A DNA stretch of 59,646 nt, from IMG/VR virus record IMGVR_UViG_3300005613_000073, positions 1-59,646 of that record. One strand, 5' to 3'. This stretch comes from a virus. Shown piece by piece: positions 1 through 59,646 of the stretch. Below the pieces are notes generated by a model. That model worked only from the letters and a program-made list of their open reading frames with translations, was not told the origin of the DNA and ran no database searches. The position numbers and the translations under genes are program-made. Positions within the stretch are counted from its first letter, which is position 1; every line of letters begins with the position of its first letter.

Positions 1-284
1 TCGATGTCTAGTTTATACGATGGACTAGCTGTGCCTATTCCTAAGCGTTTGTTACTGTCATCCCAGAACAGTGCTGAGTCATCATCAAAGCCATCACCAC
101 CGGAGGCACCAAACAGTACCCTACCTTCTGTGATTGCGTTAGTATTCTGAAATTTATATTTAGTAGAACCATCACTTATAAATAAGTTTCCTTCATCCGT
201 TATGAACGCCGGTTCGCCCGAGTCCATTACCGCTGCAGCTAAGTCAGCAAAAGGTCCTTTTCTTAATGTAATCTTATTTGCCAT
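1..284 (-). CDS. Tail-fibre-like protein, N-terminal part (cut by window edge)
   Basis: Partial gene; the 3' end lies beyond base 1 and 94 residues are visible, starting at ATG 284-282. The start is MANKITLRKGPFADLAAAVM followed by a segment ending DEGNLFISDGSTKYKF. That pattern matches the short receptor-binding-protein N-terminal domains (Mtd-N-like) that attach fibres to the tail. It is followed by an LGIGTASPSYKLDI motif, the GIGT-SP repeat common in phage fibres and often found ahead of S74 chaperone domains. There is no signal peptide, unlike the GIGT proteins at the right end of the window. It lies 12 bases downstream of the T7-type tail fibre and is probably co-transcribed with it as an adhesin or adaptor. 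The C-terminal domain is not visible. Confidence 0.75.
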   Translation of the reverse strand, partial: MANKITLRKGPFADLAAAVMDSGEPAFITDEGNLFISDGSTKYKFQNTNAITEGRVLFGASGGDGFDDDSALFWDDSNKRLGIGTASPSYKLDI

Positions 285-296
285 TGTATTCCTCCA

Positions 297-1757
297 TTAT
301 AATGAACCACCGTCAATTACTTCGATGTATCCTGGGTTAGTGCTTAACACACCACCATCTATAGCTGGGTCACTAAAGACTGTTGTAGTCAAAGCTCCAC
401 CATCAATGTCACCACTATAGGCTGTCACTGGTGTTAAACCTATTAATATAGTATTACCAGATTTATCTATGTTCCACATTATACCATTGGTTATATCATC
501 AACAAAAGACAGTTGGTCGCCTGTCTCATGTACAGCACCATTAAGTCCAACAGCTATTGTGTTTATTGAACTAGCATCAGCCTCTACTGACATAGTACCA
601 CCATCATCAGTGACAGTAAATACTACAGATGAACTATCATTGAAATTCAAATTCTTTTCATCACCAATGCTAACATCATTATGCTTAATGTTTACTTTCT
701 GGACACTTGAGCCTTCAACAACATCTGCTGTTAAGACATTACCTGTGTAATCTAAAGTTACAGTTGAGGTATCGTCTATTACATTTCCTAGTGATGCGTT
801 GAATAATGATTGGTCGTAGTACAGATTAACAGTACCCTCGGTCAAGTCATCAGTATCTTTAGCACCAAAGGCTGAATCAAATCTAGCCTGAGTGTAATAC
901 AAGTTAGAACCCTCAGTCAAGTCATCAGTATCTTTAGCTGCGAATGATGCGTTAAACCTTGTTTGTGTGTAAAACAAATGGCTTACACCCTCAGCTAAAT
1001 CATCAGTATCCTTGTTACCAAAGGCTGTATCGAATCGACCTTGGGTGTAATACAAGTTAGAACCCTCAGTTAAATCATCAGTATCCTTAGCACCAAAGGC
1101 TGAATCAAATCTAGCCTGAGTATAATACAAGTTAGAACCCTCGGTCAAGTCATCGGTATCAAAAGGACTAAGTGATATAGTAGGTGTTAATTCGTTAGAA
1201 ACATCTGAATAACTCCAGCTAATACCAGTGCCATCTTGAATAAGATTAGCTACAGCATCGTCTACTCTCTCTGTTGTAAAGTAAAGGTTACTTGAGCCCT
1301 CACCGATATCATCTGTATCAAAGTCATTGATGTCAAATGTAAATTCTAATGTATTGTTACTTGCGTCATACTCCAGTGCTAGTCCATCTCCACTGACCCC
1401 TAGGTAATCATTAGCTAACGTAGCATTGAAGTTCTGAGACTTAGCGAAAGCTAGTGCTTCCTGTGCTAAGTAAAAAGTCTGGTCACTATCTATATTTAGT
1501 GTTTCTGCTAAGCGTATACTTGTGTTTGTAAATAAAATGTCTCTAGTTTCTTTAGTTGTTTCTCTATAGACTATGACCTCTGAACCATCAGCAGGTGCTG
1601 TAGCGAAAACAGCATTACCACCTGAAGGAGTAACTGATGTTACAACCCCATCTACAGTAGCCTTTATTGATGACCTATCAGAGTCATATGATGGGTGAGC
1701 AAAAGCAACTTGGTTGCCGTCACCCTCATAGATTAAAACAGCAGGGTAATAACTCAT
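297..1757 (-). CDS. T7-type tail fibre with TDDLTEGSNLYYTQ repeats
   Basis: 486 residues; ATG preceded by AGGAGGGACA. Residues 1-110 resemble the T7 gp17 N-terminal tail-attachment domain (GDGNQVAF, then a VIVYRETTKE segment, then an AQEALAF helix). Residues about 145-345 hold six copies of a roughly 25-residue repeat with consensus DTDDLTEGSNLYYTQ-RFDSAFG-K, likely a fibrous beta/coiled shaft. The rest is beta-rich with no recognised receptor domain. It lies directly after lysozyme and before a second fibre-like gene, the T7 gp17 position. Role: host recognition by the left module's virion. The repeats are partly conserved at DNA level and may expand or contract by recombination. Confidence 0.88.
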   Translation of the reverse strand: MSYYPAVLIYEGDGNQVAFAHPSYDSDRSSIKATVDGVVTSVTPSGGNAVFATAPADGSEVIVYRETTKETRDILFTNTSIRLAETLNIDSDQTFYLAQEALAFAKSQNFNATLANDYLGVSGDGLALEYDASNNTLEFTFDINDFDTDDIGEGSSNLYFTTERVDDAVANLIQDGTGISWSYSDVSNELTPTISLSPFDTDDLTEGSNLYYTQARFDSAFGAKDTDDLTEGSNLYYTQGRFDTAFGNKDTDDLAEGVSHLFYTQTRFNASFAAKDTDDLTEGSNLYYTQARFDSAFGAKDTDDLTEGTVNLYYDQSLFNASLGNVIDDTSTVTLDYTGNVLTADVVEGSSVQKVNIKHNDVSIGDEKNLNFNDSSSVVFTVTDDGGTMSVEADASSINTIAVGLNGAVHETGDQLSFVDDITNGIMWNIDKSGNTILIGLTPVTAYSGDIDGGALTTTVFSDPAIDGGVLSTNPGYIEVIDGGSL

Positions 1758-1766
1758 TGTCCCTCC

Positions 1767-2748: not shown

Positions 2749-5700
2749 CTATCTTTGCTCTAGTTTTGCTTGTTCAACTAGTATTCTATATTTAGCTATA
2801 TCTTCATACTTCTGTGTCATCTGTTCTTTAGCTTTAGCTTTAGCAATAGACATTATACTACTAAACATTTCAGCACGAGAACCTCTATTCAAGGAACCCA
2901 TGATATACTGAGACTTACTACCTTTATCCCATGCTTGACTCTTAACTACTTTAGACATCATAGCCTTAAAGGAATCTCCAGTCATCTTGAGATAATCATG
3001 CCTCTGCTGTGCAGTTAGTTGTTTACCATCTATTTTTCTAGTGTCAGAATAATGACTACCTAAGTTATACTTGTCATTAGCAACGTACCACTTAAGGTAA
3101 TTGCTTATGTTATCTTTATCTGGTTCTTGTATTAAAGGATTACTAATGTTTGGTGCGAATGGTATTTTGTTGAATGAGTCTCTAGGTTCACCTAAGAAGT
3201 CAAGTTTCTCTATTGAGCTATAAGTTTTAGTGAAGTTACCAGAAACCTGCCTTGCTCCGGCAAACATGTGATCTAGAATAGTAACATACTCATTAACAAC
3301 ACCTGGTCTTTCTGTGTTACCTGATAACCTTTTAACAGCTACATCAACTTCACGCATGAACTGAGTAGAACCTAAGAAAGGAACTGGAGTAGATGCAGCT
3401 AACACTTGGCCAGCTAATCTAGTCGTCTGTCTTCTAGGGTCTTTAAGCCAACTAGCTAAGTTCATAAAACCCTGCATAGCAGCTTTGTCTGTCAAAGCGT
3501 GTGCTAATGATGCCATAGCTATTGAGGTAGCTCTTGTCATACCATCTTCATCTACATATTCTGATTCAGCCATCAATTCAAGGGCTTCCATGGTGTCTGC
3601 TGTCAATGCTAAGAATCCAGATAATGGGTCCATTGCATCAAAACTCATAGCACCTTCGCCAGGAACGTAGATGGAATAAGGCATAATACCTGCTTCCTGT
3701 AACTCAGGTTTCTCTAATGGTAGTCTACCATAGATAAGACCATTCTTTTTCATATAAGCACCCATACCTATAACTGAAGCACCTATCATGATTTCTGCAT
3801 GAGCTCGATGTGGGTCAGTCTTAAGTAAATGCTTATACCATTCTGTAGCATGTTGTACAGTAGCCGTTGGTAACTTAATACCACCTGTGCCTTTGAAGAA
3901 ATCTCTCATGCGCTCTGTTGGTGCTTTTTCTGCTAATAGGGTCATCGCTTTACCTGTGCCCTCTTCAAAGAAGAATGACATAGGACCTATAGTTCTGTTG
4001 GCAACAAACATAAGCGCATTGATTGGTTGCTTTATAACAGGAAACAATATCTTAACAAGAGGTACCTCATTAGATATCTTCTGTAATTTCCTTGCTACCG
4101 ATTCCTCTGGTAAGTCACCAGACATTGTGAAATCCTCTGGTATCTGTTTCCATAGATCAGGTTTCTCAGCTATAAGGCTTTTGTTTCTAATAAGAGCATC
4201 TTCAAGAAGCTCAGGAGTTAGTGTCCCACCTTTCTTTGTAAGTTCAGCTACAGCCATGTCATAGGCTAGAGCATTTATCCTTACATTAGCGTTCATTACC
4301 TTAGCCATTTCATCTGTAGCCAGGAGTATATTTAAACTAGTTCGCATTAGTTTACCATACATATCAACCCTACCAGCACCTACGGCTCTAACTAGAGATT
4401 CTCCAGCAGCACCAAAGTTCTCACTAATAGCTGTTGCTGTTACTGATTTAGCATAATAATCTTTATCTGTATGTAACAAAGCGTCTGAGAAAGCAGCACT
4501 CATGTTGTTCTCAATACTGAAGTTAGGTAGCTCTGTTTTAAATGCTTTCTTAGCGTAAGCCCAAGCACTTGCACAAGTGTCACCATAGTTATGGAAAAGG
4601 TATCCTACTCTATCTAGATCACCTTTGAATAGTGAAGAGAGTGACTCAACGCCAACATTCCAAGTATATCCAATAGAAGTACCAAGGACATTCTTCATAA
4701 CAGCTTTACCGGCAAATAAGTTTGCAGCAAATACTTCAGTCCAAGTCTTAACCATTCCTTCCCAGCTACCATTGTTTACTATAGTTCGTATAGCTTTAGC
4801 TGTGCCACCAGGTGAGTGTTTAGCTGTTTTAGCTATGTTCTCCATTATCTGGAGTACTTCTTCTTTACTAATGTCCCCACCTTTGAGTTTAAAGAATTGT
4901 TTAATCTTAGCTAATGCCATAGTAGAGTTACCATCACCAGAGATACCACGTAATATATTAGTATCACGCATAAGCCTAGTTGTACGTGCTGAAGCTGACT
5001 TCATCCTGATGTAGTTATCAAAAACAGTAGCCATTTCAATAACACGAGTAAGGTTCTCTGTCACAGCTTCGTCTGTCATTTTGTGAGCGCCTATAGTACG
5101 GTAGTTCAATACAGTCCTGTCTAGTTCTTCACTCAATGCTTTAACATAGTATGCTGTAGCAGCTAATCTGACAGGAGCAAGTTCAGCATCCCTACGCCAC
5201 GATCTGACAGCCTTAGGGACATCAGAATCACCTAAGTGATTCAACAAGTCTTTACCCATATCAAGTAGCTCTGGTATTGCATAGTTTTCTTTGTCCTTAA
5301 ACAGCGCTGTACCAAGTGCATCTAAAACAAAAGCAAACTCTTCATCACTATCGTAATTATGTCTGCTTAACCAAGTAGCATCTGTTATAGCTTCATTATC
5401 TAAGAACTTCTTAATGTACTCTGCTGTACCTTCTTTATCTCTTTTAGTCAACTTAGCTCTGAACTTAGGTTCTACCTTGTTATACTCATACTTAGATACT
5501 TCGAGTGTAACCTTAGGTCTACCTTCTTTAGAAATCACCTTTGGAGCTTCAGTTACATTAGACTCTGGCACACCTTTAGCATCAGCTGTTTGAGTAGCTG
5601 TGTCTGGTATTGTAGATTCTTTAGCAACATTATCGGCAGCACCTGTTGTTTCTTTAGTTGACTTAATTAGGTCATTTATCAATCCCTGAGCTTTCTTAAA

Positions 5701-7956
5701 GTCTTCAGGGTTTTCTATCATTTTGTTTATCTTTTGTATACTTGCTTCAACATTGTCAAACATCTTAAGAACATTATCAGGGGCAACACCTTCAAGTAAA
5801 TCTGGGTACTGCTCAAGTAAAGCTCTTTTAGATTCTTCTGTCATTTTCAATGTGCTTTTAAGGAAGTCAATAGTATTCTCAGTCATAAGCTTCTTAAAGC
5901 TCTTCCTAGCTGCTCTGTAGCCTTTAAATTTGCCACCCATGTATGCTGTAGCACACAAGATAACAGCAGATGATATCAGGTCATCAGTATCTATGAAACC
6001 ATCTTCATTAAAGTCTGCTAGTGATAACATTGGGCTTGCAACTATAGGAGCTAAAGCATGTGAGAAGAACCTGGCTCCACCTGAGCCTGTCTTATGAAAG
6101 ACATCTGCAGCTTCACCAGCTTTCAATTCAGTAGTTTTAACTAGGTTAATAGCACCTGAGTCTGCACTGAAACCGTTATCAACTCTATGTTTATTAAAAG
6201 CATCATAAAGTAAACCCATTTCAACAGTTCTCACCTGTCCTTTCTTTGGTATACCTTTACCTATAGTGCTCTTATATCTAACATGATGCCCTGTGTTGTA
6301 AGCAGACATTACCTTACTTGCTCCAACCTCGTTTACATCAAACGCATGTACTAACTCATGATATGCGTTAGACAAAACAGCATCATCTGTAATACCTTTA
6401 CCATTTAAAAGTATCATACTAGCTGATTTATTTGGGTATTTCTTTACAGATGCTATTAGACCTTTAACTTCGCTTCTAATTTTAGCATAAGCACCAATGT
6501 TAGTATTACCTTTGAGATACTTCTCCTTCTTAATACGTTTCATTATACTATCAACTGTATCACCTTTTCCTATAACGATTGTCCCACCGTCAACAGTACT
6601 TTTACTAAGGTCTAGTCCAGATACCATCCCAACTAGTGGTGCATCAGGACCATTAGCGTAATGCATTTTAACCCAAGTAGCCATATCTTCTGGAGTATGT
6701 ATATCGTTAGCTCTAAAGAAGTTACCCATGAGGCTATCCATTAAGTCCTTAGATTTCTTGAACTTAATATGTTTCTCAGCAACACCTTCGGCATGCTTGA
6801 ATTGATTGCCAGCGATCTCAGCAAAAGCAGACATTAGCTTCTTATCTGAGACACCCTCTAAGGTTTCAACACCTAAGATTTTCTTAGCCTTTTCCATGAC
6901 AACTGAGATTACTGATCTAGCGTCTTCAACATCTGGTGACTGGTATGGTACGCCATTGTTGTGTAAACCAATGGACGCTCCTGTCTCAGGGTTGTCTAAA
7001 ACAGTAAAATTATCCTCAACATCTATCAATGGATGTGCTGGAGTTTCACTTATCTGGTCAACACCTTTAGTAGGTGTAACCTCTGGAGCTACTGTATCTG
7101 CCTTGATCTCATCAAGTATTTCTTTTGTTCTTGATGTCATAGCTTCATCATAGGATTCTCCTAAGGTTTCACCTGCTTCAACTAATATCTTTTTGGTATT
7201 CTCAAGTTTATCAACTGAACCTATTACTTTACGTAATTTACCTAAGCCACCAATTACGGTATCAAAGGTTAAACCTACAGCAGAACCAACCATTGCCTGT
7301 TTAAGCCTACCTGTAGCCTCTGAATCTTCCTCATCAGCTGCTAAGTAATCTGAAACTGCACCAAGTAATGGCACATCAGCATCTCTTATAAAGTTTGCAA
7401 GGTTTTCAGTTGATGGTTGAATCATATCAACCACAGCACCTACACCTGCGTCTTGTATAACTCTACCCCAAAACTTATGTTCTTTAGCTAACTGTGTTAA
7501 CTTGCTAAACATTTTAAATTTAGTTAAAGCTTGTAGTTTACTAAGTTTATTTACTAGAGCAGTACCTGTCAAAAACGGTACTAGAAATCTTGTTGTTTCA
7601 TATGCGAAAGCATCAAGCATGTCATCAGGTCTTTCAAAGGTTAAGTCAAAACTATGTGGATCAACTTTAGCACCAAAGGCTCTCATTGTCCCTTTTGATA
7701 TCCACGATGCAGTGTCTGCAACATCAGCTACAGATTGACCAGCGCCTTTACCGATAGCTCCTGTGAACTCGCCAAATTGTTGCCACATTGTCTTATCAAC
7801 GCCAATATCCATACCAACAGCATCACCTATACCACTGATGTTATTAAGTATTCTGTTGTTCTCTCTGTTTAGTTCTTCGATAGACATATTAGCATATGGA
7901 TTAACACCTTGAGGTTTACTCTGGTTATTCTCATTATAAGCTTGGTCTAAAGCCAT
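2749..7956 (-). CDS. Giant internal virion/ejection protein (T7 gp16-like) with zincin and EF-hand motifs
   Basis: 1735 residues; overlaps the gp15-like gene by about 20 bases. It occupies the T7 gp16 position just before lysis and fibre genes, so it is probably ejected into the host envelope during entry. Visible motifs: an HExxH metallopeptidase-type site (NAYHELVHAF, H533/E534/H537); a canonical calcium-loop pattern DFNEDGFIDTDD (about 648-659) followed by a hydrophobic stretch; hydrophobic, Gly/Ala-rich segments near 120-160; and a C-terminal region from about 1150 containing KILFPVIKQPINAL, resembling the membrane-associated C-terminal domain (LPD38-like) of large phage polyvalent proteins. 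I see no lytic transglycosylase motif like that at the T7 gp16 N-terminus. Confidence 0.75.
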   Translation of the reverse strand: MALDQAYNENNQSKPQGVNPYANMSIEELNRENNRILNNISGIGDAVGMDIGVDKTMWQQFGEFTGAIGKGAGQSVADVADTASWISKGTMRAFGAKVDPHSFDLTFERPDDMLDAFAYETTRFLVPFLTGTALVNKLSKLQALTKFKMFSKLTQLAKEHKFWGRVIQDAGVGAVVDMIQPSTENLANFIRDADVPLLGAVSDYLAADEEDSEATGRLKQAMVGSAVGLTFDTVIGGLGKLRKVIGSVDKLENTKKILVEAGETLGESYDEAMTSRTKEILDEIKADTVAPEVTPTKGVDQISETPAHPLIDVEDNFTVLDNPETGASIGLHNNGVPYQSPDVEDARSVISVVMEKAKKILGVETLEGVSDKKLMSAFAEIAGNQFKHAEGVAEKHIKFKKSKDLMDSLMGNFFRANDIHTPEDMATWVKMHYANGPDAPLVGMVSGLDLSKSTVDGGTIVIGKGDTVDSIMKRIKKEKYLKGNTNIGAYAKIRSEVKGLIASVKKYPNKSASMILLNGKGITDDAVLSNAYHELVHAFDVNEVGASKVMSAYNTGHHVRYKSTIGKGIPKKGQVRTVEMGLLYDAFNKHRVDNGFSADSGAINLVKTTELKAGEAADVFHKTGSGGARFFSHALAPIVASPMLSLADFNEDGFIDTDDLISSAVILCATAYMGGKFKGYRAARKSFKKLMTENTIDFLKSTLKMTEESKRALLEQYPDLLEGVAPDNVLKMFDNVEASIQKINKMIENPEDFKKAQGLINDLIKSTKETTGAADNVAKESTIPDTATQTADAKGVPESNVTEAPKVISKEGRPKVTLEVSKYEYNKVEPKFRAKLTKRDKEGTAEYIKKFLDNEAITDATWLSRHNYDSDEEFAFVLDALGTALFKDKENYAIPELLDMGKDLLNHLGDSDVPKAVRSWRRDAELAPVRLAATAYYVKALSEELDRTVLNYRTIGAHKMTDEAVTENLTRVIEMATVFDNYIRMKSASARTTRLMRDTNILRGISGDGNSTMALAKIKQFFKLKGGDISKEEVLQIMENIAKTAKHSPGGTAKAIRTIVNNGSWEGMVKTWTEVFAANLFAGKAVMKNVLGTSIGYTWNVGVESLSSLFKGDLDRVGYLFHNYGDTCASAWAYAKKAFKTELPNFSIENNMSAAFSDALLHTDKDYYAKSVTATAISENFGAAGESLVRAVGAGRVDMYGKLMRTSLNILLATDEMAKVMNANVRINALAYDMAVAELTKKGGTLTPELLEDALIRNKSLIAEKPDLWKQIPEDFTMSGDLPEESVARKLQKISNEVPLVKILFPVIKQPINALMFVANRTIGPMSFFFEEGTGKAMTLLAEKAPTERMRDFFKGTGGIKLPTATVQHATEWYKHLLKTDPHRAHAEIMIGASVIGMGAYMKKNGLIYGRLPLEKPELQEAGIMPYSIYVPGEGAMSFDAMDPLSGFLALTADTMEALELMAESEYVDEDGMTRATSIAMASLAHALTDKAAMQGFMNLASWLKDPRRQTTRLAGQVLAASTPVPFLGSTQFMREVDVAVKRLSGNTERPGVVNEYVTILDHMFAGARQVSGNFTKTYSSIEKLDFLGEPRDSFNKIPFAPNISNPLIQEPDKDNISNYLKWYVANDKYNLGSHYSDTRKIDGKQLTAQQRHDYLKMTGDSFKAMMSKVVKSQAWDKGSKSQYIMGSLNRGSRAEMFSSIMSIAKAKAKEQMTQKYEDIAKYRILVEQAKLEQR

Positions 7957-9814: not shown

Positions 9815-10363
9815 TTACCCTCCCATGCTAGCATATGTCATTAACCCTGATGTACCAACCTGTAGTGCACCTAGTACTGGGCTAACGTGATTTGATTTAA
9901 CTACACTGGCTTCATTAATAGCTTCAACATTACGGTTACGTCTGTTTAACCAGTTTATTGCATTGGTGTCCTCAAGCTTACCTAAGAACGCCTCTTTCTC
10001 GCTGGCGACTTTACCTAGTTCAAAACCTGTCTGAACGTCTATACTATTAACCGAAGCTAACAAAGACTTTGAGCCTGAGCTTATACCAGCACCTGCACCA
10101 GCAGCCTCAACTGTAGCTTTATTCTTTAAACTAGTGCGTGCCAGATCAAACTTGGCTTGCATCTCATTCTTTATTGCGTTTACTTCCTGTCCTTCTAACT
10201 GTGAACGCCTAGTGTCGTAGGCTATATCAGCCTGAGTGTCACGCTGCTCGATAGCACGTAACTGAGCTCTAACAGTAGCGTTCTGTTGTTTTATTTTAGC
10301 ACCTTCAGCACCCATAGAGGCAGCTGTGGCTATGATCTGTAGTGTAGCTGGGTCTAAGCACAT
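9815..10363 (-). CDS. Internal virion protein, T7 gp14-like
   Basis: 182 residues starting MCLDPATLQI; a Gln/Arg/Ala-rich helical middle and a Gly/Ser-rich segment (AAGAGAGISSGSKSLLASV) resemble the small internal virion protein B of T7-like phages, which inserts in the outer membrane at infection. The right-hand module has a counterpart of 168 residues that also begins with MC and has an NVALGSGSPADW segment in the same place. The start overlaps the 3' end of the gp13-like gene by 10 bases. Function is assigned from position and pattern. Confidence 0.62.
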   Translation of the reverse strand: MCLDPATLQIIATAASMGAEGAKIKQQNATVRAQLRAIEQRDTQADIAYDTRRSQLEGQEVNAIKNEMQAKFDLARTSLKNKATVEAAGAGAGISSGSKSLLASVNSIDVQTGFELGKVASEKEAFLGKLEDTNAINWLNRRNRNVEAINEASVVKSNHVSPVLGALQVGTSGLMTYASMGG

Positions 10364-16436: not shown

Positions 16437-16642
16437 TATGCGTCTCCTTGAGGTTTATTAGGTGCTTCTTTTTTCTTATTAGTCTTCTTAGTTTTAACTG
16501 GTTTAGTTGTGTCAATAACTCCGGCTCCTGGCTGTCCTGCCTTGGTTACTGTGAAATCCCCCTGCTGTGTAATTACAGTAGGTCTCTTTTCTAAAGGTAC
16601 TTTAGCTGTAAGTGATTTTTTACTGCCTCTCTGTGTTCCCAT
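16436..16642 (-). CDS. Small basic protein between portal and scaffold
   Basis: 68 residues, Lys/Thr-rich (TKPVKTKKTNKKKEAPNKPQ) and predicted disordered. It overlaps the portal 3' end by 23 bases and the scaffold start by one base, so it is translationally embedded in the head operon. No family recognised. The right module has an unrelated 107-residue Bbp19-like protein at the same place. Confidence 0.6.
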   Translation of the reverse strand: MGTQRGSKKSLTAKVPLEKRPTVITQQGDFTVTKAGQPGAGVIDTTKPVKTKKTNKKKEAPNKPQGDA

Positions 16643-18173: not shown

Positions 18174-18175
18174 AG

Positions 18176-18394: not shown

Positions 18395-18397
18395 AAA

Positions 18398-18592: not shown

Positions 18593-18616
18593 ATAAACCT
18601 CCTAAGTGTTATACAT

Positions 18617-18647: not shown

Positions 18648-18664
18648 GTAATGCTAAAGTGAAT

Positions 18665-40263: not shown

Positions 40264-40271
40264 GGGGTAAT

Positions 40272-51100: not shown

Positions 51101-54100
51101 CATGGCATGAGAGCTTTTTACAATACAATGATCCCTAATATAGTTGGCAACTACCTTAAAAAATTAGACAAAAAAGCAAAAGTCTCTGTGAGCAAACTTT
51201 CTACAGGTGAGGAAGTCTGGTCAGTTAATATAACTGATAAAATGAAAGACAAAGTTCTTGAAGGCCAAACCCTGTTTCAAAAAGCACAGGGGCTGGAGCC
51301 TAGAGGATCTATAAAGATGTCAAAAAACAGAGCTCAGTATTTTATATCCCTTTTCCAGAGAGCTAACCTTTCAACAGCTCTGCATGAACTTGGCCACGCT
51401 TTTCTTTTAGAATTAACTGAGTTAGTCCATTCAGGAAACGCACCTACTAAAATGCTCCAGGACTGGGAGATTGTCCGCAATTATTTGGGTACTGAAATTG
51501 GAAAACTCCCAAACCGAATGCAACATGAAAAATTTGCAAATGGCTGGCTTCAGTATCTCAGGACGGGTAAAGCTCCTAACAGCAATTTAGTACCTGCCTT
51601 TGAGCATTTCAGAAAGTGGATGACTTTTTTATTTAAAGACTATGAAGATCTTCCTGGTATGACTCCTGAAATGGAAACATTCTTTAACCGGATGCTCAAT
51701 GCAGATCAGGAAGCGAACGCAGCTATTGAAGATAATACTTTGAGCCTATTAACTCCTTCTGTTCGCAAAGCTTTAAATTTAACCAATGCAGATGCCCAGG
51801 ACATTGATTCTTTAATCAAGAAAATGAAACTACAGACCAGAGTTGATGTAGAGTCTGACAGAAACAAGAATCAAGAAAAGCAAAGAAAAGAATGGGCAGA
51901 GGAAGCAAAGCAACAAAGAAACTCAGAGCCTGTATATAAATTGGCTACTTCATTAACGGAAAACAAAGGGCTGGACGAAAATGAAATTTTTATGGAAGTA
52001 GGTCAAGAAGGGCTTAATGAATTAAAGCGTAAAGATCCAAAACTTGTGCAGAAAAATGGAAGATCTGTAAAAGCGGCAGCAGATACATACAATTTTCAGA
52101 GCCCTATGGATATGGTTGTGCAACTGTTAGACATGCAGACTGAAAAGCAGTATGTTGAAGAATACGTACAGCAGAAGCAAATTATATCTGATTCTGAAAC
52201 AAAAGCCGAGGCAGTAGCTTACGAGCAGAAAGCATACGAGCAGATCTTACGCAAGACCGCTGAATACATTCAGCGTAATAACAAAGGGTCCGACACTCGT
52301 GTATCTATGAAAGAGATAAAAGATCAGGCAGAAAAACTTATTGCTAATATGACAATGAGAGATGCCACAGCTTCCTATAAGTATTTAGGCGCTTTGAAGA
52401 AAGCCAATAGGCTTGAAAAGAAAGCTATTATGAAGCAAGACTGGTTCGAGGCTGCAAGACAGAACAGAATGGCCAGGCTTAACTTTGAGCTTTACAAAAA
52501 GTCTATGGACATGAAAAAGAATACAGAAGCCAAAGCCTTAAGCAAGGCTAAAAGATATGCTTCTGCTAATCCATCTAAGACTTTGTCTTTTGAGTTCTTA
52601 CAAGGCATCAAAGAATTGGCTACTAGATATGGCCTGGTCCCTGATGGTGTTCAGAAATATTTACCTGATAAAATAAACAGAAAAAGAAATCTCACAGATC
52701 TTTTAAGTTCTGATGATGATCTTCTGGATACAGGGGCTGCTTTTTCTGACAGATTCTTTACAGATGAGTATGTGAACTATAAAGATCTTACAGTGGGTGA
52801 ATTTAAAAACCTTACAGATTTTATAGATCATTTATACCACAGGGGAAGAAGTGAAAAGCAGAACACTATTGAAGAGGGTGAAACAAAACTTATTGATGCA
52901 GTTATGGCTTGCATAGAACCTATGGAGAAAATAGGGGATATCGCTAAAGTCGATGATAACTCTAGATGGGGTAAAACTGTTAGGCAATTAAGAGACTGGT
53001 TTGCAGATCTCAGTATGTTTCAGTTCATTGTTCAAAGAGCAGATGGCTTTAAAACAGATGGACCTAATCACAGATACATCTGGAACAGATTGTCTGCTGC
53101 TGACAGTAAAAAAGCGGAGTTAAAAGAAAGAGTAGCCAAACAACTTGAAGGTCCTCTTAAAAGATTGCAGGAAAAAATAAGTTCAATGCCTGCTACTCTC
53201 AGGACAAAAGTTCCTGTTCCTTATTTCATGCAAAATGAAGGGATTAACTGGACACCTGAAAGAGCTCTTGCAATAGCTCTAAATATGGGTAATGATTATA
53301 ACTTTGATACAACAATACAAGGATATGAAATATCAAGAGCTGAAGCCTTTGAATTGACCTCTTTCCTGTCTGATTCAGACTTAGATGACATTCAGGTCAT
53401 CTGGGACACTGTAAACAGCTTATGGCCAGAATTAAACAGAGAATTTTACAAGATTAATGGCTACTACCAGGACAAGGTTAAGGCTAAAGAAATAATATTC
53501 CCTAGTGGTAAGAAATTAAAAGGTGGATATTATCCTATAAAATATGATCCTAAACTTTCGGACATAGCAGGTGAGTGGAAAGAAAAAGAAGATATTATGA
53601 ATGCTTCGGGCGCTTTGTTTCCTGTTGTATCTGTTAAAGCAGGGCACATGAAGGGGAGACTTGGGGGCGCAGGACGACCTGTTTATTTAAGTTTATCTGT
53701 GTTATCTGAGCATATTGAGACTGCTACAAGTTATATCGCTTTTGGTAGTGCAGCCAGAGAAGTATATAAAATAATGAATCATGGCCAGTATAAAGAAGCC
53801 ATGACTAAAACTTTTGGAAGTGCTTTAAAAAGTAAAGTAAGGCCAATACTAGCTTCTGTGGCAAGACCTCAGCCAAATAAAATGACCGCAATAGGCAGAC
53901 TCATGAACAAGCAAAGATCTTTGGCTACTGCTTACATATTAGGTGCTAATGTGTCTGTGGCGCTTAAGCAGCCATTCTCAGTGTTTGGTTGGGCTAATAG
54001 AGAAGGTATGAGTGCCTTATTAGATGCTTTTTATTTTTGCTGTTTTGACAGGGGTGAAACTTTCAGAGTAGCTACTGAATACAGCACAACAATACGCAAC

Positions 54101-54940
54101 AGAGATACAAATTTATCAAAGTCTATTAATGAAACAATGGCCAATATAGATTTCAGAGATGCCAAGTTTTTAGGTGTTAATAAGAAAGATGTAGCTGATT
54201 GGCTATTTGCTTTGATTAAGTTTGCAGATATGTTTACTGTACTTCCTATATGGAGAGCCTCCTACAAAAAAGCAACATCTGAAGGGCTTACGCACAAGCA
54301 GGCAGTTATAAAAGCAGACAGTGCAGTATCTGCTACTCAGCCCATGAACAGAAAAATAGATCTTTCAAATCTGCAAATAAGTGGAGATGGAGCATATCAA
54401 ATGTTTGCAATGTTCAGTTCATTTACAATGAAGTATGGTAACAGGCAGTCATATCACTGGAGCGGGTGGGCCAGAGGAGCTATTAACAATAGGGATTTCT
54501 TAACATTCTTACTGGTAGAAACAATGGCACCTGTGCTGGGTATGCATTTATTGTTTGGATTATTGCACGGAGAAGATCCAGAAGATTTAATTAAAGACCC
54601 TAAAATGATAGTAGATCTTTTATTGTATGCAGTATCGGGTACACCTATCGTAAGAGATGTGGCTTCTGCTGCTGCTAAGGGGTTTGGAGTTAACAGCCCT
54701 ATTATGGAAGGTATGGATCTCGCAGGAAATGCCCTTGGCTCTTTGATTGCTTTTGCTAAAGATCTTGGAGATGATGACTCTTTTGAAAAAGCCATGTGGG
54801 CTTTCTTTGAATTGTTATCTTACGGCACAGGAATACCAGCCAGCAGGCTTGTACATAAATTCAAAAAAGGAATGGAACAATACAAAAAAGGTGAGGGTAC
54901 AGCATTCAATATTCTGGCACCGGCACCAAGGAGGAATTAA
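42188..54940 (+). CDS. 4250-residue polyvalent ejection protein (gp16 position)
   Basis: A single open frame of 12.75 kb. Features in order: Gly-rich hydrophobic segment (about 199-237) and a second near 275-300; ParB/sulfiredoxin-like motif VVNGHNR (722-728); HExxH site VLVHEIQHLIQ (H1308); ADP-ribosyltransferase-like region (about 1868-2020); a second one starting AFHGTTHDF (about 2084) and ending HYHIFDSNNIKSADP (about 2395); EF-hand-like DDANNDGAISLED (about 2605); the phage polyvalent-protein motif EEIQSDWHQKGRDYG (about 2720); HExxH zincin LHELGHAF (H3066); and an LPD38-like hydrophobic C-terminus (about 3918-4168). YYQ, YFQ or LFQ linkers recur at domain borders. Position just before the tailspike, as for T7 gp16, implies it is packaged in the virion and ejected. 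Confidence 0.85.
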   Translation: MKDVIENVDLQIRKNAEAAVNMSSFLNPDKEAEMFELHKSTEVPVNLLKNLSPDQIRSLKHGNPLDKISRESALIDYYSVPENAAISGDDADNLSKVEADWKALKANDSKDKSIFDELKEAGTSISEKFEQGQIENTLGDLYFKKILLGQEIDENEIAELEARLEEITLTASPDTADYALGEASKIAGQMFDAVWKHKGAIAGSTAIGAGIGSQIPVAGTLTGAGYGALTGFVGSQAKNAYFVEAGMAAKDLSDIRDDNGVPIDPEIIKVAAHAVGAINASLELAGIGFLSLIAKNVGGKVIAKGTVRSLTKKALRDKVVIEALGKVAKDYAIGVAGDAVTEGMQEAVNILSEYISKEVSQKIEGTEFSENELFTAENFGRVGTTMKDVFVGNTVLTIPAGGVSTYNTFTKARKAQQFNDAVKGINETLENSTTKQRSPNKVAEALSVLGMEQDVFIDPDDAKTMFQDNPELLAELELDDATISNYSAEGKLIPFKLNKLFAKLNKEQFDIVRPWIRASEAAMNIKDLQNKDMQKELNNVIEQYETATKDEDYFQENIKRVKQELVDSGYTEQDAQHVVDLWEAFSRRMAFEGRELSETLERINIERIKRDEFKKRQKSGVQLPLNTARVQKRKAPKVTVPKEKVFKPKTVTEVKKVKDIKKDMPGVTVLKSKEIIYDPERFQFKVTGKEKAGKGLSGKKFNVKLLGVLDVWKDPETDKIYVVNGHNRLQKIREENFPYVPVNFIDAKSAKEARAIGALLNIGTGSGSAIDAAIFIKESEYTIQEVTEMLPEKKVVTDGIALSRLSRKVLLEVQRGEFDEDLAVLIGANLENIEDQKEVISAVKRKENPSKKWLREYIRQVQFAPQIEESTMGLFGEMVSTRSLFNERAEVSNAIVTRLSKDKQLGTIAAKAGFIEEKGAGKINVKTAKGLAQFAKQATEVFQKLSVTKGEISNIVNKYAMELQKSKDKNAVYDAAYKEIRDVLAGQLESGKTLKQSQAERTAKLRQEHNRFPGDTKASMVKEFFDTGKLVNKRKDGSIKYTFTKSAKDNSLIQRTTFDSKNQPMSDKEAPFTKEGLESLIDDSDILVTEKRIKRPDIPKSMRVREGSPLNFLYKIKETAPEGRIATRGDVVVYDTVLSQEEIDQHGLTPIGYEDKTPVFYQFGGIMAERADLGKHDIAERMEYENKSPEEIRKKTGWFRGLDGKWRFEISDKGMKLKRKEFNKHMSTILLSGNSTTLGKLIDHKALFSQYPVLKGTEVEFEHSVNKEPGTWGAQVISPSGSPFNKKIVLNVKNLKNKRYIIEDVLVHEIQHLIQTREGFAPGGSTDTGNAVLTKVIQGFLPVIPRLRMFFNEEYFKNLFEIVDGLNEKDLEKNYIKFKSDFEEAIKKYMPKHDTEMKDLIYSVSKKGVDLSMQSFKELMRNRHYQLGYEIFVRRKELLEKARERNEYKQMLADKYNTTAYGNLITKEEHRTLVEKSDELFRVKKDMRNYATLRLRNDTYAHAMYLEDADNPRNGYNRMYQYYLKDFLKTPFEIYESIKGEFEARETSNRSKMTQAERKGLEPYVLTFQKEGLQPGELVEVDEGIYYQDGKADIERLKLETEKYLDISSYAELSEGKELKTAEQIALHNTVVEIKQVLWDTGYFSDNALYEMRNVKSLDDMEYVEEYLEQAGDLRTKEEIYESNLEVISEDLEAGIAPEELVNEFYEEALENPFELSKKTMGVTEDLMEAGYILPDGTLLDFSGKREGGPIGKRSMDHRQISLPFKSGISGTDAMVAFQKMGAMRIDVRSGLVDLETKPTRSQLDNLKDMILFSEEGVLTVDLQDGDRKLSFDTTSASEAIRKISDFYKVSETLFQAGTEDIYYQDGKADTYFYGGTDLNLREPAPFDTGFGKAVVLARSDAEAREQGGNYVQRVSVNTNKILNLDEGVKYEDAKNTKAWKKKKAELQEERKQAVLREEIDPEYTFLSAEDLEDSFKEEMGNEGDFVFQRELIEELGYEGVVLQKGERDEMLYVFDPKNVSFDPQSNNIYFQTYNTLDRINEVRDTGKASRDTEYLEAVESGDTSKAQQFVDDAANKAGYNVEAFHGTTHDFRVFDPEKKGNVEGFLGKTNYFTSDQTDAESNYGSIGGADLAIRVEEATEQLLNNLEGEQFDIDDITRLTGLTEEQLQERNYIDQDLEVIDENSRELAELMAQKDLYGGEDKVLDVRLKMEKPVTVMANKDRRGVAVFTSDEYIDNGIEGLDLEEAWQDVKEEQGLEDSDRGDYASEIRQFALETSMREPRIVEVLREVIGQEYGGEEAVQDILESLDYSVYEDEINAGELMTVMKQSEHLNYIQDEYDGGLISSDLIRKVFEELGYDSIILENAENAFSNMGLDYDTTHYHIFDSNNIKSADPVTYDTEGNVIPLSERFDTGKEDIYYQDDLGYFSALEQSVSDLQFKTMPAKDLANRIKKIPGLKQEEMEWTGVIEWLELQGNEKVAKADVMTFIEAGGVQLSEVGSILSKEEREERRQEFRENQEEQAREDVREAFEDIYVDKTGRPGPDAWEHFIIDEDADVISLLNKIKHTEEYKEWDEQYEKTLTDAEVIEKISESYVFAVEIAQLFDDANNDGAISLEDTNMGREEWFEYLYDDLYEAALESIQEADAWEENAPSGKHEDYIHPSPEYKNYNEKLLTAPRIKGDFYHQQHWGSVRNVLAHLRSTERKLLIQKSDLQDTFHIEEIQSDWHQKGRDYGYIGGPLGLKIKNLIKQLEKVEAEYRTELERVLSTELKKMTRLEYGLMRKPNATEARMEAYLREQGIDPNAEVYYDTESRQMFREPISPKRREAEVSITVGALLRDLKYKIDDLKTEIRIQKRQEVPDAPFKSSNAWALLVFKRALRLAIDSGHDYISWNPGEVNADMYNIRKQVRSISYNRSSKAFAYITLAGDQRVKSNVSEEKLKGYVGREAAEKLLTKEGDYITLEEEGLEVGGHGMRAFYNTMIPNIVGNYLKKLDKKAKVSVSKLSTGEEVWSVNITDKMKDKVLEGQTLFQKAQGLEPRGSIKMSKNRAQYFISLFQRANLSTALHELGHAFLLELTELVHSGNAPTKMLQDWEIVRNYLGTEIGKLPNRMQHEKFANGWLQYLRTGKAPNSNLVPAFEHFRKWMTFLFKDYEDLPGMTPEMETFFNRMLNADQEANAAIEDNTLSLLTPSVRKALNLTNADAQDIDSLIKKMKLQTRVDVESDRNKNQEKQRKEWAEEAKQQRNSEPVYKLATSLTENKGLDENEIFMEVGQEGLNELKRKDPKLVQKNGRSVKAAADTYNFQSPMDMVVQLLDMQTEKQYVEEYVQQKQIISDSETKAEAVAYEQKAYEQILRKTAEYIQRNNKGSDTRVSMKEIKDQAEKLIANMTMRDATASYKYLGALKKANRLEKKAIMKQDWFEAARQNRMARLNFELYKKSMDMKKNTEAKALSKAKRYASANPSKTLSFEFLQGIKELATRYGLVPDGVQKYLPDKINRKRNLTDLLSSDDDLLDTGAAFSDRFFTDEYVNYKDLTVGEFKNLTDFIDHLYHRGRSEKQNTIEEGETKLIDAVMACIEPMEKIGDIAKVDDNSRWGKTVRQLRDWFADLSMFQFIVQRADGFKTDGPNHRYIWNRLSAADSKKAELKERVAKQLEGPLKRLQEKISSMPATLRTKVPVPYFMQNEGINWTPERALAIALNMGNDYNFDTTIQGYEISRAEAFELTSFLSDSDLDDIQVIWDTVNSLWPELNREFYKINGYYQDKVKAKEIIFPSGKKLKGGYYPIKYDPKLSDIAGEWKEKEDIMNASGALFPVVSVKAGHMKGRLGGAGRPVYLSLSVLSEHIETATSYIAFGSAAREVYKIMNHGQYKEAMTKTFGSALKSKVRPILASVARPQPNKMTAIGRLMNKQRSLATAYILGANVSVALKQPFSVFGWANREGMSALLDAFYFCCFDRGETFRVATEYSTTIRNRDTNLSKSINETMANIDFRDAKFLGVNKKDVADWLFALIKFADMFTVLPIWRASYKKATSEGLTHKQAVIKADSAVSATQPMNRKIDLSNLQISGDGAYQMFAMFSSFTMKYGNRQSYHWSGWARGAINNRDFLTFLLVETMAPVLGMHLLFGLLHGEDPEDLIKDPKMIVDLLLYAVSGTPIVRDVASAAAKGFGVNSPIMEGMDLAGNALGSLIAFAKDLGDDDSFEKAMWAFFELLSYGTGIPASRLVHKFKKGMEQYKKGEGTAFNILAPAPRRN

Positions 54941-54943: not shown

Positions 54944-57820
54944 ATGACTGTAGCAAGCAGTGTAAACAAGACAGCGCGGTTAGCTTGTGACGGTGTAATC
55001 ACTCGTTTTGACTTTACTTTCAAGATCTTTGAATCCGCAAATCTTCAGGTTTATTTAACGAACGTGCAGACAGACGCGGAGGCCTTGCAGACTGAAGTCA
55101 CTGATTACACTGTAACAATTAATGATGATTACACAGGATACATCACGTTCGGCACAGCTCCGAGTTCTGCATATGTTGTCACAATTATTAGGGAATTAGA
55201 TATTGTGCAAGAAACAGATCTCAGTAACCAGGGTGCGTTTTTTCCTGAGGTACTTGAAAAACAACATGATAAAGGCATTATGATAGCTCAGCAACTTAAA
55301 GAAGAGCTAGACAGATGTCTTAAAGCTCCTTTGACAAGTACCGATGACCCCACTACTTTATATGGCGAACTAGAAGCGGCTGCAAATGCTTCAGAAGCGT
55401 ACACCAGCACTTATGAAGAAACTGTCACCGACTTAGTTAAGCAGACATTTACAGTAGATTTTAACATAGATGCTACAAAACGAAATGTAGCCATACATGT
55501 GAATGGCCTGAAGCAAGCAGGATCTGCTTTCACTTTAGTAGACGCAAGTGGGAATGTGGTAGTTTCAGGCACAACTAAATATGTGAAGCTTAACGAATAC
55601 ATCAATCAAGGAGATCTTTTTGAGGCTTCTTCTCTTGATATTACAGGAACAGGAACAAGCTCTTACAGTGCTGAAACTTTATTATCTACCTTTGGAGGAG
55701 ACTTGGCTACTGCAATAACAACAATAGGTGCTCTTGACAGAACACTATTGATGGATACAGCTATTAATCTTACTGAGGATGTAACTGTACCTAGTAATAT
55801 AAGTCTAAGATTCACACCTACTGGAGTAGTTACAATTGCTTCAGGTAAGACTCTTACCATTAATGGCAATATTGATGCAGGAGCTTATCAGATATTTGCA
55901 GGCAGTGGAACTGTTGCAGGAATAGAAGGGCATGACATATGGGTTGAGTGGTTCGGTGCTTATAACGACCCTGCAAATGTTGGAGGTGCAGCAGCCATAT
56001 TAGCTAATACTACTGCTTTTCAAACTGCTTGTTCTTATGAGGGTAGTAGAGTTACTACTCTTAGAAGTACCTATTATCTAGATGAACAAGTGAACTTATA
56101 CCCTGGGGTGACTTTAGATTGTGCGGACAGTGTTATACATTTCAATAAGAAAATAACTTCTGTTGGCTCTGGTTTTTTCTTGATTCGAGATAACAAGCTT
56201 TGCAATATTCAGTTGCTATTTTTTAATTGTGCTAATGCTGCTGCGGGTGCAGCTCTTTCGATAATTCAGATAGGCAGACATTATACTGATTCTGGTGTAG
56301 ATGCTCCTATACCTGTTGGATGGGTTGAAGCCAAAAACTGTATTGTAGAGAATATTACTTTTGACGCTGAAGGACTTTTGGACGCAGGTGGTCAATATGT
56401 CAATCCAATTTTTTATTCCAATAAATCTTATAACATTACAATTAGAAATATTGAGGCTATTGGTAGAGACATATTCTATAACCTGATACACAATGAAGGG
56501 TCGCAGGATTATTCTGGGGCAGGTACAGTTTTTGATTTCAGTTATAATGTTTTAATAGAAAATATTAGAGCATATGATTTTGACACACTCGATAAAGAGT
56601 CAGTAGTTATAAGTGTTAGATCAGGTAATACAGTTATAAGAAATGTTGAGGTAGAAGGGTGTGGCCAGACAGTGCATTTAACTACTGCACCTGTGTCTCA
56701 AAATGAAAGTGACAACGCTTACATATCAGGCAATCACCAGTTAGTGGACAATGTTATTTGCATTGATACTAAAGTTAAAGCGGTAGCAGGTCCTCTTGCT
56801 ATAATCAAAGTATTTTCTCAGACAACTGATGAAACAGACACGGAAGAAATAGCAATGCAGACCGTGAGAAATGTGAGTATAAGAGCTAATACTCCAGGCG
56901 TAGGGTATACAGGTTTTTTCCATGGCGTGCAAATTAACGAAACAGCCTTTATAGCAGGTTCTGTAACTCGTAATGTAGTAGTAGATCAATGCGACATTGC
57001 CAACTGCGATGTGGGGATATGGGCTTATGGCGGTAGAAACATTACTATCAGAAATTGCCGTAGCAGAATGAACAGAGGAAATGGGATATCTATTGTAAAA
57101 ACTGACTTAGCCGTTATAGATAACTGCCATGTATACAACAACAATGTGGATTCTGATTATTCTAACGAAGCCAGTTATTCTGGGCATGGTATACAAGTTA
57201 GACCTTATCTTAATTCTATGTTCTATATTACTAATTGTAGACTTGGAAGTTCAGAACAAACGATTGGAGCAGAAACACAGTTAAATGCGATACATATACA
57301 CACGCATGACGGTGATAAGCACCAGGGTGTATATGGGCATATTCAGAATTGTATTATTGATAACTACAAATCAGGAAAGTATGAGGTGTATTGTATAGAT
57401 AATGATTCTTTTATAACTATGGATAATGTAATTAACACTAATAAAGAATTAAGACTATCCGGCATATATGACCACACAGCTAAGCCTACAAAATATATGA
57501 TTGAAAAATATCATATCACATACAACAGAAACCTGGCAGCAGCAGCCACACCAGGTTGGCAGTGTGTGAGTAGATATGACGATGCTTTAACAGGGACCAC
57601 AACAGCAGGTAATGCTACTTTAGCTTTTGCGGACACTTCAGGTATGTTGGCTACTGATGTTGTTGGGGTATTGAATGATAGCGGTGATTTTGAATGGTTT
57701 ACCATTTCAAGTGTAGATTCAGGTATTCAGATAACATTGTCAGGTAACTTGGCTGTTACAGCCACTACAGGCAATAGAGTTGTTTTTTGTAGATGGGCTG
57801 CGTTAGCAGTATTAACATAA
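54944..57820 (+). CDS. Tailspike with T7-type attachment domain and parallel beta-helix
   Basis: 958 residues. Residues 1-150 resemble the T7 gp17 N-terminal domain (GVITRFDFTFKIFES, VTIIREL, then a coiled LEKQHDKG helix). From about 320, WVEWFGAYNDP and later repeating asparagine-ladder-like turns (NCIVENITFDAEG, NITIRNIEAIG, NITIRNCRSRM) indicate a right-handed beta-helix of the pectate-lyase type, as in polysaccharide-degrading tailspikes. C-terminal small beta domain from about 880. It likely binds or cleaves host surface glycans. Confidence 0.88.
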   Translation: MTVASSVNKTARLACDGVITRFDFTFKIFESANLQVYLTNVQTDAEALQTEVTDYTVTINDDYTGYITFGTAPSSAYVVTIIRELDIVQETDLSNQGAFFPEVLEKQHDKGIMIAQQLKEELDRCLKAPLTSTDDPTTLYGELEAAANASEAYTSTYEETVTDLVKQTFTVDFNIDATKRNVAIHVNGLKQAGSAFTLVDASGNVVVSGTTKYVKLNEYINQGDLFEASSLDITGTGTSSYSAETLLSTFGGDLATAITTIGALDRTLLMDTAINLTEDVTVPSNISLRFTPTGVVTIASGKTLTINGNIDAGAYQIFAGSGTVAGIEGHDIWVEWFGAYNDPANVGGAAAILANTTAFQTACSYEGSRVTTLRSTYYLDEQVNLYPGVTLDCADSVIHFNKKITSVGSGFFLIRDNKLCNIQLLFFNCANAAAGAALSIIQIGRHYTDSGVDAPIPVGWVEAKNCIVENITFDAEGLLDAGGQYVNPIFYSNKSYNITIRNIEAIGRDIFYNLIHNEGSQDYSGAGTVFDFSYNVLIENIRAYDFDTLDKESVVISVRSGNTVIRNVEVEGCGQTVHLTTAPVSQNESDNAYISGNHQLVDNVICIDTKVKAVAGPLAIIKVFSQTTDETDTEEIAMQTVRNVSIRANTPGVGYTGFFHGVQINETAFIAGSVTRNVVVDQCDIANCDVGIWAYGGRNITIRNCRSRMNRGNGISIVKTDLAVIDNCHVYNNNVDSDYSNEASYSGHGIQVRPYLNSMFYITNCRLGSSEQTIGAETQLNAIHIHTHDGDKHQGVYGHIQNCIIDNYKSGKYEVYCIDNDSFITMDNVINTNKELRLSGIYDHTAKPTKYMIEKYHITYNRNLAAAATPGWQCVSRYDDALTGTTTAGNATLAFADTSGMLATDVVGVLNDSGDFEWFTISSVDSGIQITLSGNLAVTATTGNRVVFCRWAALAVLT

Positions 57821-57832
57821 GGAGATTTTAAA

Positions 57833-59365
57833 ATGAAAAGATTATTAGTAGTATTTTTAATTGGCTGTAGCATTTATGCAGCAAGTGCTGATCTGCCAAG
57901 TTGGGACACAGATAAATCCTACCCGCCTCAGTTGAGGTTCGGGTGGAGTGATACAGATCCTAAGGCTTTCAATGTAGGCACAGACGGGATCTTAAAAGTT
58001 ATATTTAGTTCACCACTTCAAGCTGCTCCTACTTGGAGCAGTAGTAAACATTATCCTTTCAGTTCTATGTTTGGGTATGATACTGATGCGGGGGATGGAA
58101 CTCTAAAAGGTATAGCGACAGACTCAGACGGTGCAGTATATGTTCAGGCTTTAGGTACAATGGAAGTGGATACAATTGAAGCTACATTCATCGGGGACAT
58201 AAGGACAAACAGCATTTGCAATTGTACAGGTTCACAAACTTTAACCATAGAAGTCTCAGACAATATGGAAAGAGCTTTCTGGATTGTTGGAGATGATGGA
58301 CAAAGATACATGTGTGTTGACACACTTAACACTGATCCTGCTGTCAGGTTAGGTTGCGTGTCCGGCGAGAATGTGTTTGAGGTTGGTTCTTCAGGTATAG
58401 TTATTAATGAACTTGGAGCATCCTACAACACAAGAATTGAGGGCGACACAGACGCAAACTTATTCTTTGCGGATGCTTCTGCTGATAAGATTGGCATCGG
58501 CACGAGTAGCCCTGGTACACTTTTAGAACTTGCTCAAACTAATCCGGACTTTGCTTTAAATTCAACAGGTAATTCAGACTGTTATCAATATTTTAAACAA
58601 AATGGAACCGTTAAAGGTGCTTTTTGGCTTGATGAAAATGTAATCGGTGGAAGCGAAAACGAGTGTATACGGCTCGATGTTGGAAGTTTGGGAGATGGCG
58701 ATTTTATTTTTACTCCAACTGGAAAATTAGGCATAGGCACGAGTAGTCCATATACACCTCTTCACGTTGAGAAAAATGATGCAACTGCTTATGATGAATC
58801 AACAGCATTAACAACTTACAAAGAAGTATCAAGATTAGTTAATTCAAATACAACTGCGCAATCATTTACTGGTTTAAATTTACGTGCTGGTTCAGCAGAT
58901 ATGGGAATTGTTGGAATATATGAAGCTGCAAATCAAGGAGAACTCGCTTTTTTACTCGATAATTTCGAAGCGATGAGAATTAATCATTCCGGCTATGTTG
59001 GCATCGGCACGAGTAGCCCAACGCAAAAGCTACAACTAGAAACAGGTAATTCCGCAGGTGTTGGAATGAATTTAAAAAACACTACAGGTAATGGTGTAGT
59101 TGGTTTGGACGGTGGTGAGGATATATATTTGGATGCTCAGACAGCAGGAGCGGGAATTGAGTTTAGAACGCAGACTGTCAACAGAGCTATTGTGACCGCT
59201 ACCGATTTTAGACCAGGTGCTGATGATACATATTATGTGGGTAAAAACGATGACGACAGTCCGGCAGCATGGAAAGGTATTATCTTAAAAGACACTACCA
59301 ATGGGACTTATTACAGAATAGAAGTTATCAACGGCACTATAACTGCAACTGATTTAACGGATTAA
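57833..59365 (+). CDS. Secreted GIGTSSP-repeat fibre-like protein
   Basis: 510 residues with a Sec signal peptide (MKRLLVVFLIGCSIYAASA, cleavage before DLPS). The body has three GIGTSSP motifs, encoded by nearly identical DNA at about 58495, 58732 and 59002, spaced 80-90 residues apart. The C-terminus (GTYYRIEVINGTITATDLTD) resembles the ends of phage spike or collar proteins. Ribosome site AAGGAGATTTTAAA. Placed right after the tailspike, it should be a tail protein, yet it has an export signal, as do its neighbours at 34869 and 59377. Confidence 0.82.
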   Translation: MKRLLVVFLIGCSIYAASADLPSWDTDKSYPPQLRFGWSDTDPKAFNVGTDGILKVIFSSPLQAAPTWSSSKHYPFSSMFGYDTDAGDGTLKGIATDSDGAVYVQALGTMEVDTIEATFIGDIRTNSICNCTGSQTLTIEVSDNMERAFWIVGDDGQRYMCVDTLNTDPAVRLGCVSGENVFEVGSSGIVINELGASYNTRIEGDTDANLFFADASADKIGIGTSSPGTLLELAQTNPDFALNSTGNSDCYQYFKQNGTVKGAFWLDENVIGGSENECIRLDVGSLGDGDFIFTPTGKLGIGTSSPYTPLHVEKNDATAYDESTALTTYKEVSRLVNSNTTAQSFTGLNLRAGSADMGIVGIYEAANQGELAFLLDNFEAMRINHSGYVGIGTSSPTQKLQLETGNSAGVGMNLKNTTGNGVVGLDGGEDIYLDAQTAGAGIEFRTQTVNRAIVTATDFRPGADDTYYVGKNDDDSPAAWKGIILKDTTNGTYYRIEVINGTITATDLTD

Positions 59366-59376
59366 GGGGGTGAGGT

Positions 59377-59646
59377 ATGAAAACAATTCTAATTATAATG
59401 TTATTGTTGGCTACTCTTTTGCAGGCGAACACAAAGATCAGAAGATCATCACTTGATTCTTCTATCTTTGCGGATACAGCAGAGGCTCAATATATGACAA
59501 TTGAAACTTGCATCATGAACCCTGTCAATGTGCAACAAGCCATAGATAATTATTCATATAATTCTACAGAAGTATGGACAACAGCAGAGGTAAGATCTAA
59601 TACTATTAATACCAGTGCTGAAGTCCGCACAATCATAGATAATTAT
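59377..59646 (+). CDS. Secreted fibre-like protein, N-terminal part (cut by window edge)
   Basis: 90 residues visible. Signal-peptide-like start MKTILIIMLLLATLLQANTK, then a repeated Ala/Glu/Val segment (TTAEVRSNTINTSAEVRTII). GGGGGTGAGGT ribosome site. Continues beyond the window. Third signal-peptide-bearing protein of the right-hand module. Confidence 0.7.
   Translation, partial: MKTILIIMLLLATLLQANTKIRRSSLDSSIFADTAEAQYMTIETCIMNPVNVQQAIDNYSYNSTEVWTTAEVRSNTINTSAEVRTIIDNY

Follow-up and report, generated by a model that had tools for sequence, protein, structure and literature searches.

A 59.6-kb uncultivated-virus record with two podovirus structural modules: a possible composite of two phages

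The 59,646-base IMG/VR record IMGVR_UViG_3300005613_000073, classed as 'linear' and analysed here over its whole length (the window), carries two outward-facing podovirus morphogenesis modules. Profile searches placed a T7/autographivirus-type module on the minus strand (~0.3-18.2 kb) and a BPP-1/epsilon15-type module on the plus strand (~28.3-59.6 kb), with E-values far beyond chance, bearing out the two modules and the gene order described in a first-pass annotation of the sequence. The distinction that it drew between two capsid types also held (PF21703 Gp10A on the left, PF20911 GP7 on the right). Codon usage breaks at ~19.6 kb, between the modules, and the T7 polymerases are absent. These observations bear on whether the record holds one phage genome or two, and we refer to the left and right phages as A and B.

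Two structural modules of different type

The genes of the left module are all on the minus strand. Read leftward, they start with a 5'-3' exonuclease of the T7 gp6 type (18738-19577; PF02739; phrog_107, 7e-47) and two small open reading frames (ORFs), one of 65 amino acids and the other an 'MC' protein (18174-18737). There follow the portal (16620-18173; PF12236; phrog_449, 6e-102), the scaffold (15666-16436; phrog_1052, 6e-48), a major capsid protein of the T7 gp10A type (14517-15539; PF21703, 6e-16; phrog_267, 5e-43), and the tail tubular proteins A (13881-14465; phrog_446, 1.8e-21) and B (10873-13881; phrog_457, 2.5e-101). The internal virion proteins (2749-10836) comprise a gp13-like protein (phrog_308), a gp14-like protein (phrog_805), a gp15 called from its position and size alone and a gp16-like protein of 1,735 amino acids (2749-7956; phrog_6651, 4e-25). 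The module continues with a lysozyme-like gene (1767-2588; phage lysozyme, 2e-4), a T7-type fibre N-terminus (297-1757; PF03906, 2.7e-9) and a fibre-like ORF that is open at the window end (3-284; a weak PF18454 Mtd_N match, 2.9e-5). The Mtd_N match sits on the T7-like side although Mtd belongs to BPP-1, the other phage type. A hairpin scan also placed a terminator-like hairpin (18647-18622) inside the exonuclease-portal interval. T7-type portal, capsid and tail genes in T7 order behind a gp6-type exonuclease suggest a likeness of phage A to Autographiviridae/T7, which we do not extend to membership because A is truncated. The nearest match of the left capsid in the phage collection was the temperate Desulfovibrio phage ProddE (29%) and that of the portal was HTVC031P (33.5%). 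The first-pass description of both modules as complete was too strong for the left one, which has no terminase inside the window and lacks the T7 early half. T7-type promoter motifs in the left intergenic regions did not rise above shuffled sequences.

The right module, on the plus strand, opens with TerS and TerL (28346-30300; PF03592, 3e-22, and phrog_2, 2e-47, respectively); TerL matches the circular Manatee Spring podovirus MW202640 at 42% and an IMG/VR genome at 50%. The region that follows (30825-42191) encodes the portal (PF12236, 7e-152; phrog_332), the scaffold/protease (phrog_458), the capsid, tail proteins matching phrog_394 and phrog_376 (1e-205), and gp13-like (phrog_308), gp14-like (phrog_418) and gp15-like proteins. 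The capsid is of the BPP-1 type (33459-34454; PF20911 GP7, 4e-125; phrog_212), at 50% to BcepC6B and 47% to BPP-1. Downstream lie a polyvalent internal or ejection-type protein of 4,250 amino acids (42188-54940; PF18838 LPD23 and PF18834 LPD22), with 21-23% similarity to giant genes in right-type relatives, and tail fibre genes (54944-59646; phrog_1640, 7e-28; phrog_9942, 5e-13), the last of them open at the window end. The GP7/phrog_212 capsid, the phrog_332 portal and the upstream TerS and TerL mark phage B as BPP-1/epsilon15-like. About 40 kb of B lies in the window with its right end open, and genomes of the group measure ~38-46 kb. The giant protein also has a weak ADP-ribosyltransferase-like domain. 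Three structural or fibre-like products of the right side (34863-35696, 57833-59365 and 59377-59646) have signal-peptide-like hydrophobic N-termini, and the first two share a 56-amino acid stretch at 48% identity.

Pairwise blastp between left and right proteins returned no match at E<=0.01, and the two sides were connected solely through profile families such as PF12236 and phrog_308. The modules are deeply diverged, and gene duplication is ruled out by the absence of blastp matches. The pairing of protein lengths between the two sides, to which the first-pass annotation had drawn attention, is therefore best read as generic podovirus sizes; it fails for the gp16-like proteins (1,735 versus 4,250 amino acids).

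As had been noted, the window shows a single primase-helicase and a single terminase pair. Having just one set of replication genes and one of terminase genes would suit a helper/satellite-like fusion, with one module parasitic on the other. We regard this as highly improbable, given that both modules are full-size structural sets, each with portal, scaffold and capsid; typical satellites, to our knowledge, have no such set of their own. A second terminase would also be expected past the left end, as after the ProddE fibre gene.

Codon usage and gene order upstream of the left exonuclease

Upstream of the exonuclease, the minus strand carries a cysteine-rich orphan ORF of 59 amino acids that may belong to either phage (19578-19753; no PHROG match and no credible Pfam match), a YopX protein (19750-20163; full-length PF09643 match, 7e-15), a Prim-Pol fused to a RepA-type helicase (20185-22161; PF09250, 6e-24; PF13481, 4e-35) and a small helix-turn-helix (HTH) regulator (22186-22422; phrog_925, 2e-5). 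We scored synonymous codon usage per gene, leaving the scored gene out of training and balancing the training sizes, and 14 of the 16 left chunks and 26 of the 29 right chunks scored on their own side. The exonuclease was left-like (z=2.9), as are the left structural genes, whereas the primase-helicase (z=-2.6), most central genes and the right module were right-like, YopX weakly so. When the minus-strand genes from HTH through primase, YopX, the 59-amino acid ORF and exonuclease to portal were scanned for a change point, the best break fell at 19,588 (2-log-unit support interval, 19499-20031) and improved on either uniform alternative by 29-31 log units. Glycine codons illustrate the change: GGT accounts for 15 of 18 in the exonuclease versus 18 of 57 in the primase, YopX and 59-amino acid ORF together (p=2e-4), and for 68% and 41% of the left and right sides overall. 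The early genes lie at a codon distance of 2.99 from the right block versus 10.06 from the left block, and sub-blocks within each side differed little (-0.07 and 1.2). Because the exonuclease, an early-type gene, has the usage of the left late genes, and the primase that of the right late genes, the break tracks the phage rather than the stage of expression. The exonuclease would thus be the last gene of phage A before the joint, and the YopX and primase-helicase genes probably belong to phage B.

Gene order in left-type relatives points to the same position. The exonuclease and the portal share a strand, with the exonuclease upstream, in all eight genomes compared (seven near-complete IMG/VR genomes of the left type, plus ProddE). 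On that strand, each of the seven IMG/VR genomes also encodes a DNA polymerase A, which ends 0.4-0.8 kb upstream of the exonuclease, and a T7-type RNA polymerase, 5.7-8.7 kb upstream of it; the corresponding ProddE distances are 2.8 and 9.6 kb. No family A DNA polymerase was found in the window, nor was a single-subunit T7 RNA polymerase, which the same search recovered in 13 of 15 left-type records. The space that these genes would fill is occupied by the 59-amino acid ORF, YopX and the Prim-Pol/RepA primase. By this comparison, phage A is cut immediately upstream of its exonuclease.

The genes to the right of the primase also side with phage B. Small ORFs with mostly right-like codon usage fill the plus strand at 22599-28318, among them genes for a clamp-like protein (24044-24709; phrog_947, polymerase processivity factor, 2e-7), a protein with HTH matches (26752-26943) and a RusA resolvase (27422-27859; 1e-36). 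Matches to RusA and YopX in relatives also lie near right-type TerL genes. The sequence TTTGCGTAA occurs in five exact copies in the window (22440, 27028, 27151, 27212 and 27244; span 22440-27252), which may serve as iterons of an origin or as operators for the small HTH protein. The stretch at 22.2-27.9 kb is linked to the right phage by RusA, these sites and the HTH gene. The single shared replication core proposed at first is wrong in detail: it gives way to a set of genes (primase, YopX and the central 22-28 kb) with right-phage codon usage, and the break falls within the minus-strand run rather than in the 22-28 kb centre. Prim-Pol itself occurred in 3 of 24 right-type relatives versus 0 of 22 left-type ones, which was too weak to retain it as a stand-alone right-type marker.

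Two other positions for the joint were considered and not favoured. A perfect 123-bp tandem duplication (23810-24055) runs across the boundary between two successive small genes, taking in the end of the first and the start of the second, and is either a recent natural event or an unmerged assembly overlap; codon usage and ribosome-binding-site style are alike on either side of it, and a single-copy reading keeps the flanking genes intact. A joint at the divergent promoter (~22.4 kb) would conflict with the right-like usage of the primase and the change point at 19.6 kb.

Further observations concern the same region. The five TTTGCGTAA copies fall within 22440-22482 and 27028-27252, and those at ~27 kb are part of a longer repeated unit. 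A good plus-strand terminator-like hairpin (22175-22193) coincides with the end of the HTH gene, and no plus-strand gene lies upstream of it in the window. By eye, the product of the neighbouring early gene at 25690-26277 resembles that of 24044-24709 at the C-terminus, and both may be sliding-clamp-like.

Origin of the joint

The codon break and the replacement of the polymerases by right-phage genes point to a nearly complete 40-kb BPP-1/epsilon15-like phage (B, ~19.6-59.6 kb) next to the late half, from exonuclease through fibre, of a T7-like phage (A, ~0-19.6 kb), in contact between YopX and the exonuclease at ~19.6 kb. We give about an even chance to the record being a composite contig of two separate podovirus genomes, joined in assembly or scaffolding; a metagenomic origin of the joint at one of these two steps is the most likely one. 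The likelihoods that we attach to this and the other readings are judgements. Under the composite reading, the early region of B would be bidirectional around 22.4 kb, with the HTH gene, the Prim-Pol/RepA primase-helicase and YopX leftward and the small early genes, RusA, the terminase and the late module rightward, and A and B would be separate in nature with one ordinary virion each. Of the options raised by the first-pass annotation, an assembly chimera and abutting prophages fit best, while a two-virion genome and a helper/satellite fusion went unsupported.

Several observations weigh against a composite. The YopX gene and the 59-amino acid ORF overlap in an ATGA, the stop of that ORF overlaps the exonuclease start in another, and a Shine-Dalgarno sequence directly precedes the exonuclease start. 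No recognisable gene is truncated at the joint, although a random misjoin usually cuts genes, and GC content is alike on both sides. The half-to-half codon distance, 8.4 here, falls within the range of 0.5-19 measured inside 20 related single genomes, so that two genomes are not proven by codon usage on its own and we rejected this distance as stand-alone proof; in the low-GC genomes of the same calibration it reached 6.5 at most. A joint so clean at a gene boundary leaves room for juxtaposition in a host chromosome or for a true hybrid.

In a genuine hybrid, recombination at a gene boundary would have put a T7-like late module behind the leftward early operon of B, and one replication system could serve two capsids. 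The translationally overlapping run from primase through YopX and the 59-amino acid ORF to the exonuclease speaks for such an event; no gene is broken, and, given the hairpin after the exonuclease, a single early operon could comprise the whole run. We nevertheless consider a hybrid unlikely. Codon usage changes sharply at the joint, both T7-type polymerases are missing and the left intergenic regions have no repeated phage-promoter-like motif. Its genome would measure at least 59.6 kb with both ends open, versus 37-46 kb for phage records with either capsid type, and would thus exceed the known packaging of either type; larger Klebsiella records, opened as apparent size exceptions, were prophages with host flanks. 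Slightly less probable still is that recombination produced a true phage or phage-plasmid whose single bidirectional Prim-Pol/RepA early region drives two unrelated podovirus modules and yields two particle types.

A hybrid would also stand without a second example among related loci. Of the loci fetched (~150 of the right type and ~80 of the left), none had the two structural kinds together. Searches over whole records, 36 of the right type and 38 of the left, likewise gave no double, except for one weak T7-type capsid match (G013); one of these searches had no positive control among its own records. The excepted record (locus L040) combines that weak profile match with a right-type TerL and portal, lacks a T7 RNA polymerase and is possibly a single-capsid mosaic between the two groups. 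The literature searched yielded no precedent for a phage with two structural modules. No close relative of the left portal, the right capsid, the primase or the 59-amino acid ORF turned up among viral contigs, nor one of the primase among genome contigs. Each half type does occur alone as a complete phage, the finding that the first-pass annotation had named as decisive against one genome, in distant relatives and not in near-identical ones. In a separate case, an 84-kb contig of a Bacteroidales metagenome-assembled genome (JAFTWQ010000019.1) holds two identical 21.3-kb copies ~45 kb apart (L248 and L249), either a doubled phage genome or an assembly artefact.

The joint could also be real and lie in host DNA, with a B prophage inserted in or beside a T7-like A prophage or remnant, or with both in a cointegrate plasmid-like prophage; each phage would excise and package alone, or A would be defective. 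We hold this to be a real if lesser possibility. Long bacterial contigs (for example, those of 174-492 kb from Elusimicrobiales and Desulfovibrio) carry right-type TerL genes, and B-like phages are thus often prophages; a temperate lifestyle is also known among T7-like phages, since ProddE has an integrase and a repressor; and the clean gene boundary would suit an insertion site. The helicase part of the primase-helicase is nearest to a Methylobacterium plasmid RepA-type protein (42%), and plasmid-like lysogeny is possible for a phage with a Prim-Pol/RepA protein and no integrase seen. On the other side, intact abutting prophages should leave the early half of A on the B side, where it is missing. 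The window also has no integrase and no host gene: the search for tyrosine integrases (PF00589) was null within the window, where B is incomplete, and no host gene or tRNA was found anywhere in it. A long repeat between the two ends of the record, as for circular closure, was looked for and not found.

If the joint were real, a tailed phage would be able to make two unrelated capsids, which would call into question both headful size limits and the idea that each phage genome specifies one virion. As it stands, the record is mainly a caution that two phages may meet cleanly at a gene boundary in long uncultivated-virus records, where such joints can be exposed by combining codon-usage change points with the gene order of relatives.

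Comparison with known phages

Phages A and B each add a distant new member to a known group. Phage B has the gene order (TerL, portal, scaffold, GP7-type capsid, tail, giant internal protein, fibre) of the temperate podoviruses BPP-1, epsilon15 and BcepC6B and of the Manatee Spring podoviruses MW202640 and MW202722, with TerL matches of 40-42%. Unlike this group, B has a leftward Prim-Pol/RepA primase divergent from the terminase, an AT-rich early region of small orphan genes and no integrase seen, and the group fits phage B alone rather than the full window. Phage A shares the order exonuclease, portal, scaffold, gp10A-type capsid, tail tubular proteins and T7 fibre N-terminus with the Autographivirus-like T7 group (HTVC031P, HTVC019P, ProddE and LUZ100), at an identity of just 26-34%. 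Unlike in these phages, the exonuclease of A is not preceded by genes for a T7 RNA polymerase, a DNA polymerase or a gp4-type primase. Among the closest parallels to the record are the Klebsiella phages ST11-OXA245phi3.2 and ST512-KPC3phi13.3, composite prophage records of more than 60 kb in which a BPP-1-type phage adjoins other DNA. The extra DNA consists of host genes in the Klebsiella composites and of half of another phage in the record described here.

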